Assembly (NCBI RefSeq): GCF_001748085.1
Contig: NZ_BBZK01000003.1
Span: 1 to 64,000 of the forward strand
Source of the DNA: Streptomyces sp. TP-A0874
GTDB lineage: Bacteria; Actinomycetota; Actinomycetes; Streptomycetales; Streptomycetaceae
Direction: 5' to 3'
Length of the DNA stretch: 64,000 nt
Below the pieces are notes generated by a model, which saw only the letters and a list, made by a program, of their open reading frames with translations, was not told where the DNA came from and searched no databases. The position numbers and the translations under genes were made by a program. Shown here piece after piece: positions 55,475 through 64,000 of the stretch (within the stretch, counting starts at the first letter, position 1; each line of letters opens with the position of its first letter).

Positions 55475-57193
55475 GTGGTCACTGACGGTCCGCGCGCTGC
55501 CGCCCTGCTGCCCGAACCGCTGCGGTCGGCCCCGGGGCCGGGCGGAGCGTTCCTCCTGGATGCCCGGACGGCGCTGGTCGCCGGGCCCGGCAGCGAGTCG
55601 GCGGCGCGCTGGCTGCGCGACACCCTCGGGGCGGCCACCGGGTTTCCGCTGCCGCCCGGGCCGGACCCGGGCGGCGGTCCGGGCGGCGCGATCGTCCTCG
55701 GGCTCCTCCCGGAACTCGCGGGGCAGCGGGGCCCGGGATCTCCGGAGGCGTACCGGATCACCGTCGACTCCCGGCGGATCGACATCCGGGGAGGCGGTGC
55801 GGCCGGGGTGTTCTGGGCCTGCCAGACCCTCCGCCAGTTGCTGGGCCCGGCCGCCTTCCGCCGGGCCCCGGTGGACCCGGCGGCGAGGTGGGAGGTGCCG
55901 GCCGTAAGCATCGAGGACGCGCCGCGGTTCCGCTGGCGCGGCATGATGCTGGACGTGGCCCGCCACTTCACGCCGAAGGACGGTGTGCTGCGCTGGCTCG
56001 ACCTGCTCGCCGCCCACAAACTCAACGTCCTCCACCTGCACCTGACCGACGACCAGGGGTGGCGGCTGGAGATCCGGCGGCACCCCCGGCTCACCGAGGT
56101 CGCGGCCTGGCGCAGACGCACCAAGTACGGTCACCGCGCCTCCCCGCTGTGGGACGAGCGGCCGCACGGCGGCTACTACACGCAGGACGACGTCCGGGAG
56201 ATCGTGGCCTACGCGGCGCAGCGGCACATCACCGTGATCCCGGAGATCGACATCCCCGGCCACTCGCAGGCGGCCATCGCCGCCTACCCCGAGTTGGGCA
56301 ACGGCGACGCGGTGGACACCCGGGCCCTGGAGACCATGACCACCTGGGGCGTGAGCCCCAACGTGCTCTCCCCGGCCGACTCCACCCTCCGTTTCTACGA
56401 GGGGGTGCTGGAGGAGGTCCTCGACCTCTTCCCGTCCCCCTATGTCCACGTCGGCGGCGACGAGTGCCCCAAGGAGCAGTGGCGGCGGTCGCCCGCCGCG
56501 CAGGCCCGGATCGCCGAACTCGGTCTGGCGGGCGAGGAGGAGTTGCAGAGCTGGTTCGTCCGGCACTTCGCCCGCTGGCTCGGCGACCGGGGGAGGCGCC
56601 TCGTCGGGTGGGACGAGATCCTGGAGGGCGGCGGGCTCGGCGGCCGTGGACCGACGGAGGGCGGCCGGCCCGGGCCGGTGGTCGCCTCCTGGCGTGGTTA
56701 CGCCGGCGGGATCGCGGCCGCCCGGGCCGGACATGACGTCGTGATGTGCCCCGAGGAGCACGTCTACCTCGACCACCGGCAGGCGCCCGGAGACGACGAG
56801 CCGATGCCGATCGGCTATGTCCGCACCCTGGAGGACGTCTACCGGTTCGAGCCGGTGCCCGCGGAGTTGACACCGGATCAGGCGGAACGGGTGCTCGGCG
56901 CGCAGGCCAACGTCTGGACGGAGGTGACGGAGACCCGGCAGCGGGTCGACTACCAGGTCTTCCCCCGGCTCGCCGCTTTCGCGGAGGTCGCCTGGTCCGC
57001 CCTGCCTCCCTCCGCGGAGCGGGACTTCACGGCCTTCGAGGCGCGGATGACCGGCCACTACGCCCGCCTCGACGCCCTGGGCGTCGACTACCGTCCGCCA
57101 GACGGGCCCCGGCCCTGGCAGCGCCGCCCGCTGCCCGACGGGGTCAGCGGCACTCTCGGACGCCCGATCGACGGACCGCCCCCGGCCGGCTGA
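55475..57193 (+). CDS. beta-N-acetylhexosaminidase, GH20 family
   Basis: A 572-residue glycoside hydrolase of family 20 that releases terminal N-acetylhexosamines, as from chitobiose or peptidoglycan fragments. A GH20b-type N-terminal domain (residues 1-140) precedes the TIM barrel, which contains FRWRGMMLDVARHF, HLTDDQGWRLEI, PEIDIPGHSQ and the catalytic pair Asp329-Glu330 in VGGDECPKEQW. The conserved tryptophan of the substrate pocket is in WRGYAGG. No signal peptide is seen, so it is probably cytoplasmic and acts on imported oligosaccharides. A GTG start with GGGG upstream is used. Confidence 0.94.
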   Translation: MVTDGPRAAALLPEPLRSAPGPGGAFLLDARTALVAGPGSESAARWLRDTLGAATGFPLPPGPDPGGGPGGAIVLGLLPELAGQRGPGSPEAYRITVDSRRIDIRGGGAAGVFWACQTLRQLLGPAAFRRAPVDPAARWEVPAVSIEDAPRFRWRGMMLDVARHFTPKDGVLRWLDLLAAHKLNVLHLHLTDDQGWRLEIRRHPRLTEVAAWRRRTKYGHRASPLWDERPHGGYYTQDDVREIVAYAAQRHITVIPEIDIPGHSQAAIAAYPELGNGDAVDTRALETMTTWGVSPNVLSPADSTLRFYEGVLEEVLDLFPSPYVHVGGDECPKEQWRRSPAAQARIAELGLAGEEELQSWFVRHFARWLGDRGRRLVGWDEILEGGGLGGRGPTEGGRPGPVVASWRGYAGGIAAARAGHDVVMCPEEHVYLDHRQAPGDDEPMPIGYVRTLEDVYRFEPVPAELTPDQAERVLGAQANVWTEVTETRQRVDYQVFPRLAAFAEVAWSALPPSAERDFTAFEARMTGHYARLDALGVDYRPPDGPRPWQRRPLPDGVSGTLGRPIDGPPPAG

Positions 57194-57531
57194 GGCGCGC
57201 CGACCGGCCGGCGACCGGGCGGTGTCGGGAGACGTCGCCGGCCGCCGATGCCGCCGGCGACCGTGCCCGCTGCCGATGGGGACGCGGCCGGAGAGCCGTC
57301 GAACACACGGCGGCGCAACGCGTACAGCTCAGTCGAACAGCGCCAATCCACCGGTACGGGTGACAGCCCCGGAAACCGTAGGTTCGGGAAGTAACCGCCC
57401 TTCGGGCATCCTCGCTTCGAGCAGCCGCGAAGATGTGCCAGAGTTGCCACGTCCGGGTCGTGAACGCGTACCGTACGGCGGAACAGCCGGAACGCGCGGA
57501 ACAGGCGGGACACCGGGAAGGGGCAGCTGGG
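57194..57531 (+). promoter_or_regulatory. leader of the molybdenum hydroxylase-like operon
   Basis: No gene is seen here. The leader can form GCCC-TTC-GGGC (57397-57407) and a nearby CTTCG/CGAAG stem, and the interval is less GC-rich from about 57340 to 57440. TTGCCA at 57445-57450 and a TACCGT near 57470 could be a promoter with a long 19-base spacer. GGGAAGGGG precedes the TTG start. Confidence 0.35.
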
Positions 57532-58428
57532 TTGACCACGCACGCACCGCAGGCGGCGAAGACGGTGACGCTGCCGACCTCGCTGGACGAGGCAGTGGCG
57601 GCGCTGGCCGCGATGCCCACCGCCGTGCCCGTCGCAGGCGGCACCGACCTGATGACCGCCGTCAACTCCGGCCAGTTGCGGCCCGCCGCCCTGGTGGGCC
57701 TGGGCCGGATCAGCGAGATCCGCGGCTGGCAGTACCAGGACGGCAACGCCCTGCTCGGCGCCGGGCTCACGCACGCCCGGATCGGCCGCCCCGACTTCGG
57801 GGCGCTCATCCCCGCCCTCGCCGCCGCGGCGCGCGCCGCCGGGCCACCGCAGATCCGCAACGCCGCGACCCTCGGCGGCAACATCGTCTCGGCGGCGCCC
57901 ACCGGTGACACCCTCCCGGTACTCGCCGCACTGGAGGCCACGCTGGTCATCGCCGCCCCGGGCGGCGAGCGCCGGGAGATCCCGGTCAGCCATCTGCTCG
58001 CCGGTGTCGACATGCTGCGCCCCAGCGAGGTGGTCGGCTACGTCCGGGTGCCGCTGCTGCACGCCCCGCAGACCTTCCTCAAAGCCACCGGCCGCACCGG
58101 GCCCGGGCGGGCCGCCGCCTCCGTGGCGGTCGTCCTCGACCCGGCCCGGCGGCAGGTGCGCTGTGCCGTCGGCGCGGTGGCCCCGATGCCGCTGCGGCCC
58201 CTGGAGGCCGAGCGCTGGGTGGCCGGTCTCATCGACTGGGAGAGCGGCCGGGCGATCGCGGCCGAGGCCTGCGAGGCCTTCGGTGAGTACGTCGCGGCGG
58301 CCTGCATCCCGGACCCGCCGCCGACCGGGGAGGGCGCCGAAGCTCCCCGGTTGTCGCCCGCGGTCCTGCACCTCCGGCGTACCGTGGCCATCCTGGCCCG
58401 CCGAGCACTGGGGAGGGCGCTCGCATGA
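57532..58428 (+). CDS. FAD-binding subunit of a xanthine dehydrogenase-like complex
   Basis: A 298-residue FAD-binding protein of the molybdenum hydroxylase family (CoxM/XdhB type). The FAD motifs VAGGTDLMTAVN (N-terminal) and IRNAATLGGNIVSAAPTGD (middle) are intact, followed by the CO_deh_flav_C-type domain. It should pass electrons between the iron-sulfur subunit and an acceptor. The TTG start with a good GGGAAGGGG site is preferred; the frame is open further back to 57433, including a GTG, but without a site. The stop overlaps the next ATG by four bases. Confidence 0.88.
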   Translation: MTTHAPQAAKTVTLPTSLDEAVAALAAMPTAVPVAGGTDLMTAVNSGQLRPAALVGLGRISEIRGWQYQDGNALLGAGLTHARIGRPDFGALIPALAAAARAAGPPQIRNAATLGGNIVSAAPTGDTLPVLAALEATLVIAAPGGERREIPVSHLLAGVDMLRPSEVVGYVRVPLLHAPQTFLKATGRTGPGRAAASVAVVLDPARRQVRCAVGAVAPMPLRPLEAERWVAGLIDWESGRAIAAEACEAFGEYVAAACIPDPPPTGEGAEAPRLSPAVLHLRRTVAILARRALGRALA

Positions 58429-60455
58429 CATCCGGCAACCAGGACCGTCCCCGACCGACGGGTTGGGAACCCACCTCGCAGAGCGGGGAGCACGACGCGG
58501 ACGCGACCGGCTTCCTCCAACTCCCGGAGCACCTGCTCGACCCGTCCGCGGTGCCGCCGGGCGTCGACCCGCTGGCGGCCCCCGGTCACGGCTACGTGCC
58601 GCCCCCCATCTCGACGGCCACCACCGACCCCGGGGCACCGGGCGGTTGGGCCGTGCCACCGACCGGTTCGGCCCAGGGGCAGATCCCGGCGCAGAACCAG
58701 CCGCACGACGGGCAGCATGTGCCCGGCCCGCGGGGACCGCTCTCCATGGACGGTCCGGAGCGGCCCGCCCAGCGGTGGCCCGAGCCGGAGCCGGCGGCCG
58801 GGGACTCCGGGGAGCGGCCGCTCCCCGGCGACCCGGGCACGCAGGGGCCGAGCACCGGGGGTTGGCCCGGCCAGCCCGAGGCGGGACCGAACGACCGGCC
58901 CGGCCGCTGGGAGAACCCGGCGGAGGGTGAGGGGCGGTCGCCGGGTTCCGGCGCGCCCTCCCCGACCGGCGGCGGAGCGGACCCGACCGGCTCCGGCCGC
59001 TGGGACGCCCCCAACGCACCCGCCGCCGGCGGACAGTGGGGCGGTCTGCCCACCGACGGCGGCTGGACGTACCCGGCCGAGCGGATGCCGGCGGGGGAGG
59101 GCCGGATGCCCGAAGGCGCCTGGGCCGACCCGGTCGTGGGCGGTCCCTGGACGAGCCCCGCCGATGGTGCCAACGGCACCCACGAGACCCCGCACGCCGC
59201 CCACCCCGGCAGCGGGGCGTGGCCCGCCCCCGACGCGCAGGTCGCCGGTGCCGGCTTCGACCGGGAGGCATGGCCGCCGGCCGGAGGAGCGGAGGCCGTC
59301 GGCGAACCCGGCATTGGCGCCCAGCGGCCCGAATCGCACCTGCCCGAACCACACCTGCCCGAACCACACCTGTCTGAGGCCCGGTTGGCCGGCCCGCACC
59401 CCACGGACACCGACTCCGAGGCGCGGCTCGCGGAAACAGGCCCCCAGGAGCACCCCGAACCCGGCCGTCCGGAGGCGACGGGCACGGCGTGGCAGGGCGG
59501 TCCGGCCGACGGCGCCGCCGTGTTCACCGCACCCGTCGAACACCCCCCGTACGGCGAACACCCCGGGCCCGGCGAAGACGCTTTGACTGCCGAGCACCCC
59601 GAGTCTGCCGAGCAGGAGGGGCCAACCGGGCAGCAGGCACCTGTCGAGCACCCGGGACTGTTCGAGAACGGCACCGCAGCCGAAGGCATGCCGACCACCG
59701 CCCCGGGCGGCGAGGCGCCGGTCGATGCCCAGGCGGAGAGCGGTGAGCCGGAAGGGCTCCGGGATCCGGCAGCCGACGGGCAGTCGGCCGCCTCGGACGA
59801 CGGCGAGCGGGCCGGTACCGGCGACGGCCGCGAGGAGACCGCGGCCGGAGGGGTCAGCGAGCACCCGCAGGCCTCCTACGTCCTGAACGTCAACGGCGTC
59901 GACCGGCCCGTCACGGACGCCTGGCTCGGCGAGTCACTCCTCTACGTACTGCGCGAGCGCCTCGGCCTGGCCGGCGCCAAGGACGGCTGCTCTCAGGGGG
60001 AGTGCGGCGCCTGCTCGGTGCAGGTCGACGGCCGGCTCGTCGCCTCCTGCCTCGTGCCGGCGGCCACCACCGCCGGCTCCGAGGTGCGCACGGTCGAGGG
60101 CCTGGCCCACGACGGCGTCCCGTCCGACGTGCAGTCGGCACTGGTCGAGGCCGGGGCCGTGCAGTGCGGTTTCTGCGTGCCGGGCATCGCCATGACCGTG
60201 CACGACCTGCTCGAAGGCAACCCGTCCCCGAGCGACCTGGAGACCCGGCAGGCGATCTGCGGCAATCTCTGCCGCTGCTCCGGCTACCGGGGCGTCCTGG
60301 AAGCCGTCCGACAGGTGGTCAGGGCACGGGCGGACTCCACGCAGCCGGGCAACCCCGCCGAAGCGGCCGAACCCCGCCCGGACGGGACCCGGATCCCGCA
60401 GCAGCCAGGGTCGCCCGGCCCCGGCGACGCGCCTCCCCCGGGAGGGCACCTCTGA
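58425..60455 (+). CDS. [2Fe-2S] subunit of the complex with a long disordered N-terminal extension
   Basis: A 676-residue protein, over four times the normal 160-residue size of this subunit type. Residues 1 to about 483 are low-complexity, rich in Pro, Gly, Glu and Ala, with imperfect repeats such as HLPEPHLPEPHLSEARL, and have no recognisable domain. From residue 484 the standard fold follows: ASYVLNVNGVDRPV, plant-type ferredoxin cysteines (Cys522, 527 and 530 in CSQGECGAC and one in VASC), and the C-terminal cluster (CGFC and ICGNLCRCSGY). All eight ligands are present. The ATG overlaps the FAD gene stop. The role of the extension is unknown. Confidence 0.85.
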   Translation: MTSGNQDRPRPTGWEPTSQSGEHDADATGFLQLPEHLLDPSAVPPGVDPLAAPGHGYVPPPISTATTDPGAPGGWAVPPTGSAQGQIPAQNQPHDGQHVPGPRGPLSMDGPERPAQRWPEPEPAAGDSGERPLPGDPGTQGPSTGGWPGQPEAGPNDRPGRWENPAEGEGRSPGSGAPSPTGGGADPTGSGRWDAPNAPAAGGQWGGLPTDGGWTYPAERMPAGEGRMPEGAWADPVVGGPWTSPADGANGTHETPHAAHPGSGAWPAPDAQVAGAGFDREAWPPAGGAEAVGEPGIGAQRPESHLPEPHLPEPHLSEARLAGPHPTDTDSEARLAETGPQEHPEPGRPEATGTAWQGGPADGAAVFTAPVEHPPYGEHPGPGEDALTAEHPESAEQEGPTGQQAPVEHPGLFENGTAAEGMPTTAPGGEAPVDAQAESGEPEGLRDPAADGQSAASDDGERAGTGDGREETAAGGVSEHPQASYVLNVNGVDRPVTDAWLGESLLYVLRERLGLAGAKDGCSQGECGACSVQVDGRLVASCLVPAATTAGSEVRTVEGLAHDGVPSDVQSALVEAGAVQCGFCVPGIAMTVHDLLEGNPSPSDLETRQAICGNLCRCSGYRGVLEAVRQVVRARADSTQPGNPAEAAEPRPDGTRIPQQPGSPGPGDAPPPGGHL

Positions 60456-60522: not shown

Positions 60523-62850
60523 ATGAGCGGTCCCGGCGCGGCCACCGCCGCCACCCCCGCCGGGGGCGGCGGCAGCGGTCCCGGCAGCACGGAACAGCCC
60601 GCGCAGGGGCTGGGAGCCCCGCTCGCCCCGGCCGACGCCCTCCCCAAGACCGCCGGCACCTTCCCCTACGCGGCCGACCTGTGGGCCGAGGGCCTGCTGT
60701 GGGCCGCGGTCCTCCGCTCGCCGCACCCGCACGCCAGGATCCTCTCCGTCGACACCGGCGGCGCCACCGAGATGCCGGGCGTCCACGCCGTGGTGACCGC
60801 CGAGGACGTGCCGGGCGACTCGAACCAGGGCCGTCGGGTGGCGGACCGGCCGGTCTTCGCCAAGGACCTGGTACGGCACCACGGCGAGCCGATCGCCGCC
60901 GTGGCCGCCGACCACCCCGACACCGCCCGGCTCGCCGCGGCGGCGATCGCGGTCGAGTACGAGGTCCTCGAGCCGGTCACCGACCCGGAGCAGGCGTTCG
61001 AAGCCGAGCCGCTGCACCCGGACGGCAACCTCATCCGCCACATCCCCCTGCGGTTCGGCGACCCGGAGGCCACCGGCGAGGTGGTGGTCGACGGCCTGTA
61101 CCGGATCGGCCGCCAGGACCCCGCCCCGATCGGCGCCGAGGCCGGGCTCGCGGTGCCGCGCCCAGACGGCGGGGTGGAGATCTACACCGCCTCCACCGAC
61201 CCGCACGCCGACCGCGACCTCGCCGCCGCCTGCTTCGGCCTGGAATCGGAGCGGGTGAAGGTGGTGGTGACCGGAGTGCCGGGCGCCATGGGCGACCGGG
61301 AGGACCCGGGCGTGCAGTTGGCCCTCGGACTGCTGGCGCTGCGCACCGGCTGCCCGGTGAAGCTGGCCGCCACCCGGGAGGAGTCCTTCCTCGCGCACCC
61401 GCACCGCCACCCCACGCTGCTGCGCTACCGCCACCACGCCGACGCGGAGGGGCGGCTGGTGAAGGTGGAGGCGCAGATCCTGCTGGACGCGGGCGCCTAC
61501 GCCGACTCCTCCAGCGAATCGCTCGCCGCCGCCGTGGCCTTCGCCGCCGGACCGTACGTGGTGCCGCACACCTTCGTCGAGGGGTGGGCGGTGCGCACCA
61601 ACAACCCGCCCTCCGGACACGTCCGGGGCGAGGGCGCGATGCAGGTGTGCGCGGCCTACGAGGGCCAGATGGACAAGCTCGCCGCGAAACTCGGCATCGA
61701 CCCGGTCGAGTTGCGGATGCGGAACGTGATGGCGACCGGCGACCTGCTGCCCACGGGGCAGACCGTGACCTGTCCGGCTCCGGTCGCCGAACTCCTCCAG
61801 GCCGTACGGGACGCCGACCTGCCGCCGCTGCCCAAGGACACGCCGAGGCAGGACTGGTTGCTGCCCGGCGGCCCCGAGGGCGCCGGCGAGCCGGGCGCGG
61901 TGCGCCGCGGGGTCGGCTACGCGCTCGGCATGGTGCACATGCTGGGGGCGGAGGGCGCCGACGAGGTGTCGACCGCCACCGTCCGGGTCAACGCCGGCAC
62001 GGCGACCGTCATCTGCGCCGCGGTCGAGACCGGCCAGGGCTTCGCCACCCTCGCCCGGCAGATCGTCCAGGAGACGCTGGGCATCGAGGAGGTGCACGTC
62101 GCCTCGGTCGACTCCGACCAGCCGCCGGCCGGGCCGGCCGCACACAGCCGGCACACCTGGGTGTCAGGTGGCGCGGTGGAGCGTGCGGCCAAGATGGTCC
62201 GCACCCAGCTCCTCCAACCGCTGGCGCACAAGTTCGGGATGTCGCCCGAGCTGCTGACCATCGCCGACGGCAAGATCACCTCCTATGACGGGGTGTTGAG
62301 CACCACGGTCGAGGAGACCCTGGACGGACGGGAGCTGTGGGCCACCGCCCAGTGCCGCCCGCACCCCACGGAGCCGCTGGACGAGACGGGGCAGGGCGAC
62401 GCCTTCGTCGGACTGGCCTTCGCCGCCGTCCGGGCCGTGGTCGACGTGGACATCGAGTTGGGATCGGTGCGGGTGGTCGAGATGGCGGTGGCACAGGACG
62501 TCGGCCGGGTGCTCAACCCACGCCAACTCGCCACCCGGATCGAGGCCGGGGTGACCCAGGGGGTCGGCGCGGCGCTCACCGAGCACCTCCGCACCTCCCG
62601 CGGTGTGGTCCGCCAACCGGACCTCACCGGCTACGCGCTGCCGACCGCGCTGGACGCGCCCGAAGTCCGCATCGTCAAGCTGGTCGAGGAACGGGACGTG
62701 GTCGCGCCCTTCGGGGCGAAGGCGGCGAGCGCGGTACCGGTGGTCACCTCGCCGGCCGCGGTGGCCGCGGCGGTCCGGGCGGCCACCGGGCGCCCGGTGA
62801 ACCGGTTGCCGATCCGTCCGCAGGCAGCCGTGGTGCCGCCGGCGCAGTGA
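60523..62850 (+). CDS. divergent molybdopterin-binding subunit of a xanthine dehydrogenase-like complex
   Basis: A 775-residue protein with the a/b-hammerhead domain (KTAGTFPYAADLWAEGLLWAAVL) and the two Mo-cofactor domains. The GQG motif (VETGQGFATLARQ) is intact. Several hallmarks are altered: the usual GGGFGGK is GVPGAMGDRED (residues 251-261), RGFGxPQ is RGEGAMQ (368-374), and the C-terminal GVGE bearing the catalytic glutamate reads AASA (Ala737) within APFGAKAASAVP. Cofactor binding is plausible, but classical purine hydroxylation is unlikely. It may have a different reaction, be a non-catalytic partner, or be decaying. GAAGGGAAG precedes the ATG. Confidence 0.85.
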   Translation: MSGPGAATAATPAGGGGSGPGSTEQPAQGLGAPLAPADALPKTAGTFPYAADLWAEGLLWAAVLRSPHPHARILSVDTGGATEMPGVHAVVTAEDVPGDSNQGRRVADRPVFAKDLVRHHGEPIAAVAADHPDTARLAAAAIAVEYEVLEPVTDPEQAFEAEPLHPDGNLIRHIPLRFGDPEATGEVVVDGLYRIGRQDPAPIGAEAGLAVPRPDGGVEIYTASTDPHADRDLAAACFGLESERVKVVVTGVPGAMGDREDPGVQLALGLLALRTGCPVKLAATREESFLAHPHRHPTLLRYRHHADAEGRLVKVEAQILLDAGAYADSSSESLAAAVAFAAGPYVVPHTFVEGWAVRTNNPPSGHVRGEGAMQVCAAYEGQMDKLAAKLGIDPVELRMRNVMATGDLLPTGQTVTCPAPVAELLQAVRDADLPPLPKDTPRQDWLLPGGPEGAGEPGAVRRGVGYALGMVHMLGAEGADEVSTATVRVNAGTATVICAAVETGQGFATLARQIVQETLGIEEVHVASVDSDQPPAGPAAHSRHTWVSGGAVERAAKMVRTQLLQPLAHKFGMSPELLTIADGKITSYDGVLSTTVEETLDGRELWATAQCRPHPTEPLDETGQGDAFVGLAFAAVRAVVDVDIELGSVRVVEMAVAQDVGRVLNPRQLATRIEAGVTQGVGAALTEHLRTSRGVVRQPDLTGYALPTALDAPEVRIVKLVEERDVVAPFGAKAASAVPVVTSPAAVAAAVRAATGRPVNRLPIRPQAAVVPPAQ

Positions 62851-62967
62851 CCGGGGGAGCCCGGCGGGGCGGGGCCGGGCGCCGGCTCACCCCGCCACCC
62901 CGCCCGGGAGGCCCCGGATAGGGTGGCCGGGCTGACGTACAACACCGAGAGCACCAACCGGAGACCG

Positions 62968-64000
62968 TGTCTACCACCGCCGCGTCCTCGTCACACCACC
63001 TGTCGCCCGCCTTCCCGGGCCGCGCCCCCTGGGGCACCGCGAACAAGCTGCGCGCCTGGCAGCAGGCGGCGATGGACACCTACATCCAGAGCCAGCCCCG
63101 GGACTTCCTGGCGGTGGCGACACCCGGGGCCGGAAAGACGACCTTCGCGTTGACGCTGGCCTCCTGGCTGCTACACCACCACGTCGTCCAGCAGGTCACG
63201 GTGGTGGCGCCGACCGAGCATCTGAAGAAGCAGTGGGCGGAAGCGGCGGCCCGGATAGGCATCAAGCTCGACCCCGAGTACTCGGCCGGTCCGCTGGGCC
63301 GGGAGTACCACGGGGTGGCCGTCACCTACGCGGGCGTCGGGGTGCGTCCGATGCTCCACCGCAACCGCTGCGAGCAGCGCAAGACCCTGGTCATCCTCGA
63401 CGAGATCCACCACGCCGGCGACTCCAAGTCCTGGGGCGAGGCCTGCTCGGAGGCGTTCGACCCGGCCACCCGGCGGCTGGCGCTGACCGGTACGCCGTTC
63501 CGCTCGGACACCAACCCGATCCCCTTCGTGGCCTATGAGGAGGGCAACGACGGAATCCGCCGCTCCAGTGCCGACTACACCTACGGCTACGGCAGCGCGC
63601 TCGCCGACGGAGTCGTCCGGCCGGTCATCTTCCTCTCCTACAGCGGGAACATGCGCTGGCGGACCAAGGCCGGGGACGAGGTCGCCGCGCGACTCGGTGA
63701 GCCGATGACCAAGGACGCCGTGTCCCAGGCCTGGCGGACCGCGCTGGACCCGCACGGCGACTGGATGCCCAACGTGCTGCGCGCCGCCGACCAGCGCCTC
63801 AGCGAGGTCCGCAAGGGCATCCCGGACGCCGGCGGACTGGTGATCGCCAGCGACCAGGACTCGGCCCGGGCGTACGCCAAGCTGATCAGGGACATCACCG
63901 GTACCGCCGCCACCCTGGTGCTCTCCGACGACACCGGCGCCTCCGCGCGGATCGACGAGTTCAGCGGTTCCAAGGATCCGGCCGACCGCTGGATGGTGGC
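62968..64000 (+). CDS. DEAD/DEAH box helicase, 3' end outside the window
   Basis: The first 344 codons of a superfamily 2 helicase; the frame is open to the last base. Walker A is ATPGAGKTTF (about residues 50-59), the DExH motif is LVILDEIHHAG, and motif III is LTGTPFR. After these a second RecA-like domain begins near VRPVIFLSYSGN. The N-terminus is a short Ser/Ala/His-rich stretch. The GTG at 62968 has ACCGGAGACC upstream. It resembles single-polypeptide SF2 enzymes such as those with a XPB-like core, but the C-terminal half is not visible, so the exact subfamily and role cannot be given. Confidence 0.88.

Follow-up and report, generated by a model that had tools for sequence, protein, structure and literature searches.

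Enzymes of the molybdenum-hydroxylase superfamily use a glutamate as the base in their chemistry. For human aldehyde oxidase (hAOX1), a published account assigns this role to the catalytic Glu, lists Q113, Q776, F807, R921, and Q1203 as pterin contacts, and describes a variant mutated beside that Glu, G1269R (6q6q), as folded and free of cofactor (PMC6487702). In S. coelicolor, an analysis of iTRAQ proteome and microarray data tables SCO2940 (putative oxidoreductase; xanthine dehydrogenase, putative) with the malate oxidoreductase SCO2951, and its place in that table implies that the protein was detected, although missing values there were imputed (PMC3770449). Going by gene order, SCO2940 is probably the large subunit described below or another subunit of the same complex. 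Elsewhere, xanthine dehydrogenase figures simply as an entry among syntenic clusters (PMC13118837). A search of the open-licence literature returned no description of the complex as catalytically disabled.

We analyzed a stretch of 64,000 nucleotides (hereafter, the window) from the 5.1-Mb genome of Streptomyces sp. TP-A0874. It encodes a FAD subunit, a 2Fe-2S subunit, and a large, molybdopterin-type subunit, all on the plus strand. The large-subunit open reading frame (60523..62850, +) runs from ATG to TGA and encodes 775 aa, in which MoCoBD_1, MoCoBD_2, and Ald_Xan_dh_C each score above the Pfam cut-off. The top NCBIfam model is pucD (TIGR03196), at 658.4 bits and under its curated cut-off of 783.65. 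An AlphaFold model (pLDDT 81.2, pTM 0.83) has the molybdenum-hydroxylase fold: it superimposes on 1dgj over nearly its full length (Z 46.7, 3.2 Å over 698 residues) and on 1jro_B with Z 42.7, and among the 50 PDB matches listed in the predicted-fold search, every one is of the molybdenum-hydroxylase type, with Z up to 46.7. Domain content and fold both show that the large subunit descends from the xanthine oxidase (molybdenum hydroxylase) superfamily.

We divided the orthologs into two classes: (i) an A-type, with at least 60% identity to the window protein (166 loci), and (ii) a B-type, comprising seven loci from two genera at about 50% identity. The A-type set includes near-duplicates (a filter at <92% identity would leave 51 A-type rows and 33 ordinary ones) and excludes G163 (L199, L205), whose match is split in two. 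We note that these pieces (G163:C1:3873530-3876178) are separated by ~315 bases and that both are listed with a 1104-codon open frame; this large subunit perhaps has an insertion in its middle. A sequence-only reading of the window had placed Ala737, in AASA, where molybdenum hydroxylases have the Glu of GVGE. Alignments to four solved relatives (1rm6, 1sij, 1t3q, and 7dqx) bear this out: A737 (FGAKAASAVP; codon 62731..62733, +) occupies the column of the catalytic Glu, and no Glu adjoins it as a substitute. A fifth alignment, to 3hrd_A, ends short of the catalytic site and adds nothing on this column. A737 opens a predicted helix (737-755), just as Glu741 of an intact paralog from the same genome opens the matching helix (741-759) in its own AlphaFold model. 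The substitution is conserved in orthologs. All 46 ordinary relatives have E in the column, compared with A in 165 and S in one of the 166 A-type sequences and D in 7/7 B-type sequences, which leaves Glu in 0/173 orthologs. The Gly adjoining the catalytic Glu is Ser in 156/166 A-type sequences.

Other active-site residues have changed with it. The window's equivalent of RGFG is RGEGAMQ (368-374), with Glu370 (codon 61630..61632, +) in place of the Phe, a position that we take to be a substrate-pocket residue; the column is F in 46/46 ordinary relatives, E in 166/166 A-type sequences, and P (5), A (1), or S (1) in the B-type. The cofactor loop GVPGAMGDRED (residues 251-261; 61273..61305, +) has M256 at the GGxFG Phe column, which is F in 46/46 ordinary relatives and varies in both the A-type (T 135, M 27, L 1, F 1, A 1, V 1) and the B-type (S 3, G 3, T 1). 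A second changed cofactor loop spans residues 537-545 (62131..62157, +). Position 541 is A in 46 ordinary relatives, H (109) or R (57) in the A-type, with His in the window, and V (4), L (2), or M (1) in the B-type; position 542 is S (45) or A (1) in ordinary relatives, G (162) or S (4) in the A-type, and G in all 7 B-type sequences, with Ser542 retained in the window. The large subunit therefore lacks three features of a functional hydroxylase, namely the catalytic Glu, the GGxFG Phe, and the RGFG Phe. The sequence-only reading had likewise pointed to the replacement of GGGFGGK and RGFGxPQ by GVPGAMGDRED and RGEGAMQ. Both replacements are confirmed, but since the nearest ordinary (PucD-like) subfamily itself has GGAFGARED and RGFGAVQ, the difference from textbook xanthine dehydrogenase is only partly special. 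Counting columns whose conservation among ordinary relatives is 97% or higher, and with loops that were picked after the columns were seen, the A-type has lost 19/44 canonical residues in seven active-site loops versus 39/185 elsewhere (Fisher p 0.003); the corresponding B-type losses are 15/44 versus 39/179 (p 0.07, not significant).

We used the hAOX1 contact list (PMC6487702) to locate cofactor contacts, mapping it onto the window columns partly through bovine numbering; by this mapping, the equivalents of Q113, Q776, R921, and Q1203 are all present in the window proteins, and that of F807 is gone from the large subunit. Within the A-type, Q198 (163/166), R368 (165/166), and Q679 (162/166) are retained, and these three together with R259 and E260 are each present in at least 160/166 sequences. 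Q679, the Q1203 equivalent, is Met or Leu in 7/7 B-type sequences. The 2Fe-2S subunit contributes the Gln before CGFC (the Q113 equivalent), found in 163/164 A-type and 7/7 B-type loci. The large subunit probably binds molybdenum cofactor weakly, if at all, because F807 is lost, because the B-type lacks the Q1203 equivalent, and because the hAOX1 variant folds cofactor-free; the surviving contacts (Q198, R368, Q679, and the Gln before CGFC) mean that cofactor may still bind. Cofactor synthesis itself is present, as MoaC is found in 149/150 genomes of the family and 147/150 of the genus. The genomes with no MoaC match are G279 (71% complete), G001 (79%), G050 (82%), and G010 (93%). Two of them, G001 and G010, carry the large subunit, which proves nothing given their gapped assemblies.

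The conserved pocket raises the alternative that the complex binds molybdenum cofactor and catalyzes some other reaction, with Glu370 and His/Arg541 as new active-site residues. Glu370 is invariant in 166/166 A-type sequences beside the five contacts counted above, and the lost A-type residues are often swapped for a single near-fixed residue (9/19 in the loops, 19/39 outside). Because about half of the lost residues are replaced in this way, the pocket is constrained rather than freely drifting. Against a new active site, Pro, Ala, or Ser stands in for Glu370 and Met or Leu for Q679 in every one of the seven B-type sequences, so that the site is not common to the whole family; the cofactor-side loop has gained a His or Arg in the A-type; and position 505 (GQG) varies, with S, T, G, E, or A in 28/166. 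We consider this alternative unlikely, though it is the main rival to the reading that we favor.

The partner subunits keep their cofactor motifs. The FAD subunit (331 aa; 57433..58428, +) matches PF00941 with an E of 5.5e-41 and retains AGGTDL and TLGGN. These motifs were found in 85/97 and 86/97 of the FAD subunits searched; of the 12 that miss a motif, 11 lie on short loci that truncate them, and one (L053) has runs of N there. The 2Fe-2S subunit (676 aa; 58425..60455, +) scores above cut-off for PF01799 and PF00111, and both of its cysteine motifs are intact in 164/164 A-type and 7/7 B-type loci. There is a 4-base overlap between its start and the FAD stop, as in 83/83 Streptomyces-like loci with a usable start. 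The sequence-only reading had stated that these partners keep all their cofactor motifs, which is right for the motifs of both; the FAD subunit is nevertheless changed at 11 of 50 other conserved columns, compared with A-type losses of 4/52 in the 2Fe-2S core and 58/229 in the large subunit. The oddity at the heart of that reading, electron-transfer partners left intact next to a disabled hydroxylase site, is upheld and is a conserved trait of Streptomycetaceae. This pairing also bears on the proposal that the large subunit is a carrier or storage protein for molybdenum cofactor and no redox complex at all. Retention of part of the cofactor-contact set would suit such a role, which nonetheless leaves unexplained why 2Fe-2S and FAD subunits are conserved within the same overlapping operon, and we regard it as improbable.

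The intact paralog (G000:C4:530051-532369) is 46% identical to the window protein and retains GGAFGARED, RGFGAVQ, and GVGEAP; an adjoining open reading frame was recognized as XdhC-like. Among loci with flanks of 4.5 kb or more in both directions, none of the A-type (77/77) or B-type (6/6) has an XdhC-like neighbor. An XdhC-like match lies beside 25/46 ordinary loci, but this absence is weak evidence, because 14/18 ordinary loci with long flanks have no match either. The paralog is pertinent to the simplest reading of the annotation, in which the active-site changes are harmless and the window simply encodes a xanthine dehydrogenase or purine hydroxylase of the ordinary kind. The domains and gene set are the same and pucD is the NCBIfam model that fits best (658 bits), yet the score falls under the 784-bit cut-off, an intact PucD-like operon with its XdhC-like gene lies elsewhere in the genome, and the catalytic Glu, both pocket Phe residues, and the adjoining Gly have all changed in the window. 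We give this reading very little weight. Because those four features are all changed, hydroxylation is unlikely, and we infer that the complex no longer hydroxylates purines or aldehydes. The paralog also served as a control for the structure models. The window model falls below 50 pLDDT at 254-257 and 530-540, and so, at the matching 241-245, does the model of the intact paralog built from the same 33 alignment rows; for the 531-540 block, the mean is 62 in the paralog versus 42 in the window model. We dropped AlphaFold loop disorder as evidence, as the GGxFG loop is of low confidence in the intact control too.

Presence of the large subunit was scored by identity, with motif reading limited to the fetched loci. 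The protein was found in 149/150 sampled Streptomycetaceae genomes, spanning all 17 sampled genera, and the sole genome with no match is G279, which is 71% complete. Within Streptomyces it was found in 148/150 sampled genomes; the other two are the draft assemblies G008 (740 contigs) and G050 (1770 contigs). In 21 genomes with both proteins, the median dN/dS is 0.186 for the A-type versus 0.219 for the intact paralog over 210 pairwise comparisons, which share genomes and are therefore non-independent. Mean amino-acid distance is 0.139 for the A-type versus 0.145 for the paralog, and the A-type is slower in 113/210 pairs. Hence, purifying selection on the A-type is about as strong as on the intact paralog of the same genome. 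Eight loci were flagged for an in-frame stop; in seven, the stop either is the natural terminus or precedes the start codon, and in the eighth there is no such stop. The sequence-only reading had raised recent loss of function, and this is refuted: the change is at stem level (see below), median dN/dS is 0.19, and none of the eight flagged loci has a genuine internal stop. A degenerate leftover heading for loss would account for the multiple active-site losses and for the long B-type branch (1.05). It is very hard to square with a protein present in 149/150 family genomes, with 271/740 columns invariant across 166 A-type sequences, with the low dN/dS, and with the want of internal stops in the flagged loci checked; we hold it to be the least credible account of all.

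The timing of the loss can be placed with the help of a single genome, G603, the only one sampled from the sister family f47 of the same order. Its ortholog (L230, 8338-10620, minus strand) is 57% identical to the window protein and retains three residues: the catalytic Glu, the Phe of GGAFG, and the cofactor-loop Ser. It reads RGHG for RGFG, and RGD, with Gly replacing a conserved Glu, after GGAFG. The G603 protein is perhaps an active enzyme with a different substrate. In our trees, which are quick searches with a midpoint root and no bootstrap, and in which the long B-type branch (1.05) meets ordinary ones, a branch with SH-aLRT 100 separates the A- and B-types together from 41 ordinary sequences. 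G603 branches outside A+B, with SH-aLRT of 99 for A+B and 100 for the wider group. The same helicase lies downstream of the G603 gene, at 73% identity. The case for a common locus rests on this helicase, because the GH20 hexosaminidase upstream of the window operon is unmatched at the G603 locus and in the seven B-type loci. Seven loci from six genomes of f48, the order's other well-sampled family, all retain the Glu. With a Glu-retaining ortholog near the same helicase, we therefore place the loss on the Streptomycetaceae stem.

A feature that this complex shares with G603 is a long tail on the 2Fe-2S subunit. In the window, the tail is an N-terminal extension of 480 aa (58425..59864, +) that is rich in Gly, Pro, Ala, and Glu and carries repeated GxWxxP; its reading as coding sequence rests on the 4-base overlap and on a codon-position G+C of 0.81/0.66/0.87. 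It contains 7 GxWx(1-2)P, compared with 0.66 expected in shuffles. Tail alignment revealed a short linear motif near its start (GWEPT...DATGFLQLP...PLAAPGHGYVPP; 58452..58610, +), with the consensus W-P...YD..ATAFV.LP...PLxAPGxGYxPP. In the 83 aligned of 84 Streptomyces-like tails, the W, the T of ATAF, and PLxAPG are conserved at 95-98%, and the strict form [DE]ATxF[VLIM] occurs in 62/84. We considered the DATAFV motif as a phospho-Thr/FHA site, a reading that is our own presumption. Searched against the window's genome, a 53-residue tail-motif query found itself and two hits at E 0.09 and 0.6. Tail length is a median of 348 aa (range 114-753) in 83 Streptomyces-like loci; among seven other A-type loci it is 16-81 aa in six and 629 in one, and six B-type loci have 11, 15, 15, 253, 568, and 610 aa. 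In 36 ordinary loci the tail is absent (median -2). Tails are composed of 17.5% Ala, 16.4% Pro, 11.8% Gly, and 1.9% Trp, from which we judge them probably disordered, and TGxW occurs 156 times in 85 tail sequences versus 4.4 expected in shuffles. As the 2Fe-2S subunit of G603 bears a tail of ~480 residues, a tail of this kind appears to be older than the loss of the Glu, on the strength of this one genome.

Upstream of the operon lie the GH20 hexosaminidase (55475-57193), an AlgH-like protein, an EPSP-synthase-family protein that we take to be MurA-type, and a malic enzyme. Downstream is a DEAD/DEAH-type helicase (62967-64000), cut by the window end. A helicase follows the operon in 16/20 divergent loci and was not found in L161, L165, L173, and L199, two of which are short. 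In 8/166 A-type loci (L098, L142, L144, L147, L148, L151, L152, and L157), a very small one-helix membrane protein (RYEPPPG.GKLL...GGVYF) overlaps the large-subunit stop by 4 bases, with copies 81-83% identical; no such protein is found in the window. Our guess is that it corresponds to SCO2939, which a further study gives as a sigma-E target (PMC6767563).

We consider it probable that the large subunit is an ancient, family-wide pseudoenzyme within a three-subunit FAD / 2Fe-2S / molybdopterin-fold complex. The protein is conserved despite having lost its chemistry residues and has therefore probably been put to another use; among the roles suggested by the sequence-only reading, a structural or non-catalytic one fits best, whereas the data speak neither for nor against scavenging. 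The ancestor would have been a molybdenum hydroxylase at this locus, before the split of Streptomycetaceae from its sister family. Its descendants lost the catalytic Glu (to Ala in most lineages and Asp in one), the two pocket Phe residues, and part of the cofactor-lining loop. Strong selection continued to act on the fold, on the ligands of the 2Fe-2S centers, and on the flavin motifs. The large subunit might now serve as a scaffold or ligand-sensing arm, while the flavin and iron-sulfur centers might relay electrons from a nicotinamide-type donor to some acceptor; such a relay is the simplest role to account for the intact redox partners. The probably disordered tail might use its short motif and its tryptophan repeats to recruit partners. 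In its fullest form, which we offer as a tentative and rather speculative possibility, this would be a Streptomycetaceae-specific redox complex whose molybdenum arm has become a cofactor-free arm for ligand sensing or partner docking, with a new, invariant pocket Glu, and whose flavin and 2Fe-2S centers feed partners gathered by a motif-bearing disordered tail that predates the loss of catalysis. Were the pseudoenzyme reading true, the domain-labelled xanthine dehydrogenase of nearly every sampled genome of the Streptomyces family would be mis-assigned, and these antibiotic producers would have a core redox complex with no assigned function. It would also offer a traceable passage from molybdenum hydroxylase to pseudoenzyme, in which lineages with Ala and with Asp survive alongside an ortholog that retains the Glu, and in which the intact paralog of the same genome serves as a control.

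Among known systems, the PucCDE-type xanthine dehydrogenase has the same domain set and the same FAD / 2Fe-2S / large gene set, with a full-length match. In contrast to it, the window protein is without the catalytic Glu, the RGFG Phe, and the GGAFG Phe, its SAS loop is changed, and its operon has a long 2Fe-2S tail and no XdhC-like gene found beside it. 4-Hydroxybenzoyl-CoA reductase (1rm6), quinoline 2-oxidoreductase (1t3q), and the Desulfovibrio aldehyde oxidoreductases (1sij, 1dgj) are alike in fold or full-length alignment; 1rm6, 1sij, and 1t3q retain the catalytic Glu, unlike the window protein, and 1dgj was compared by fold alone. The G603 ortholog has the same downstream helicase and a ~480-aa 2Fe-2S tail, but differs in having the three residues named above, in its RGHG and RGD, and in the unmatched hexosaminidase. 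The hAOX1 G1269R variant resembles our case in that a change beside the catalytic Glu leaves a fold that survives without cofactor. That variant, however, is a point variant of an active enzyme, whereas here the Glu itself is gone from an entire conserved family.
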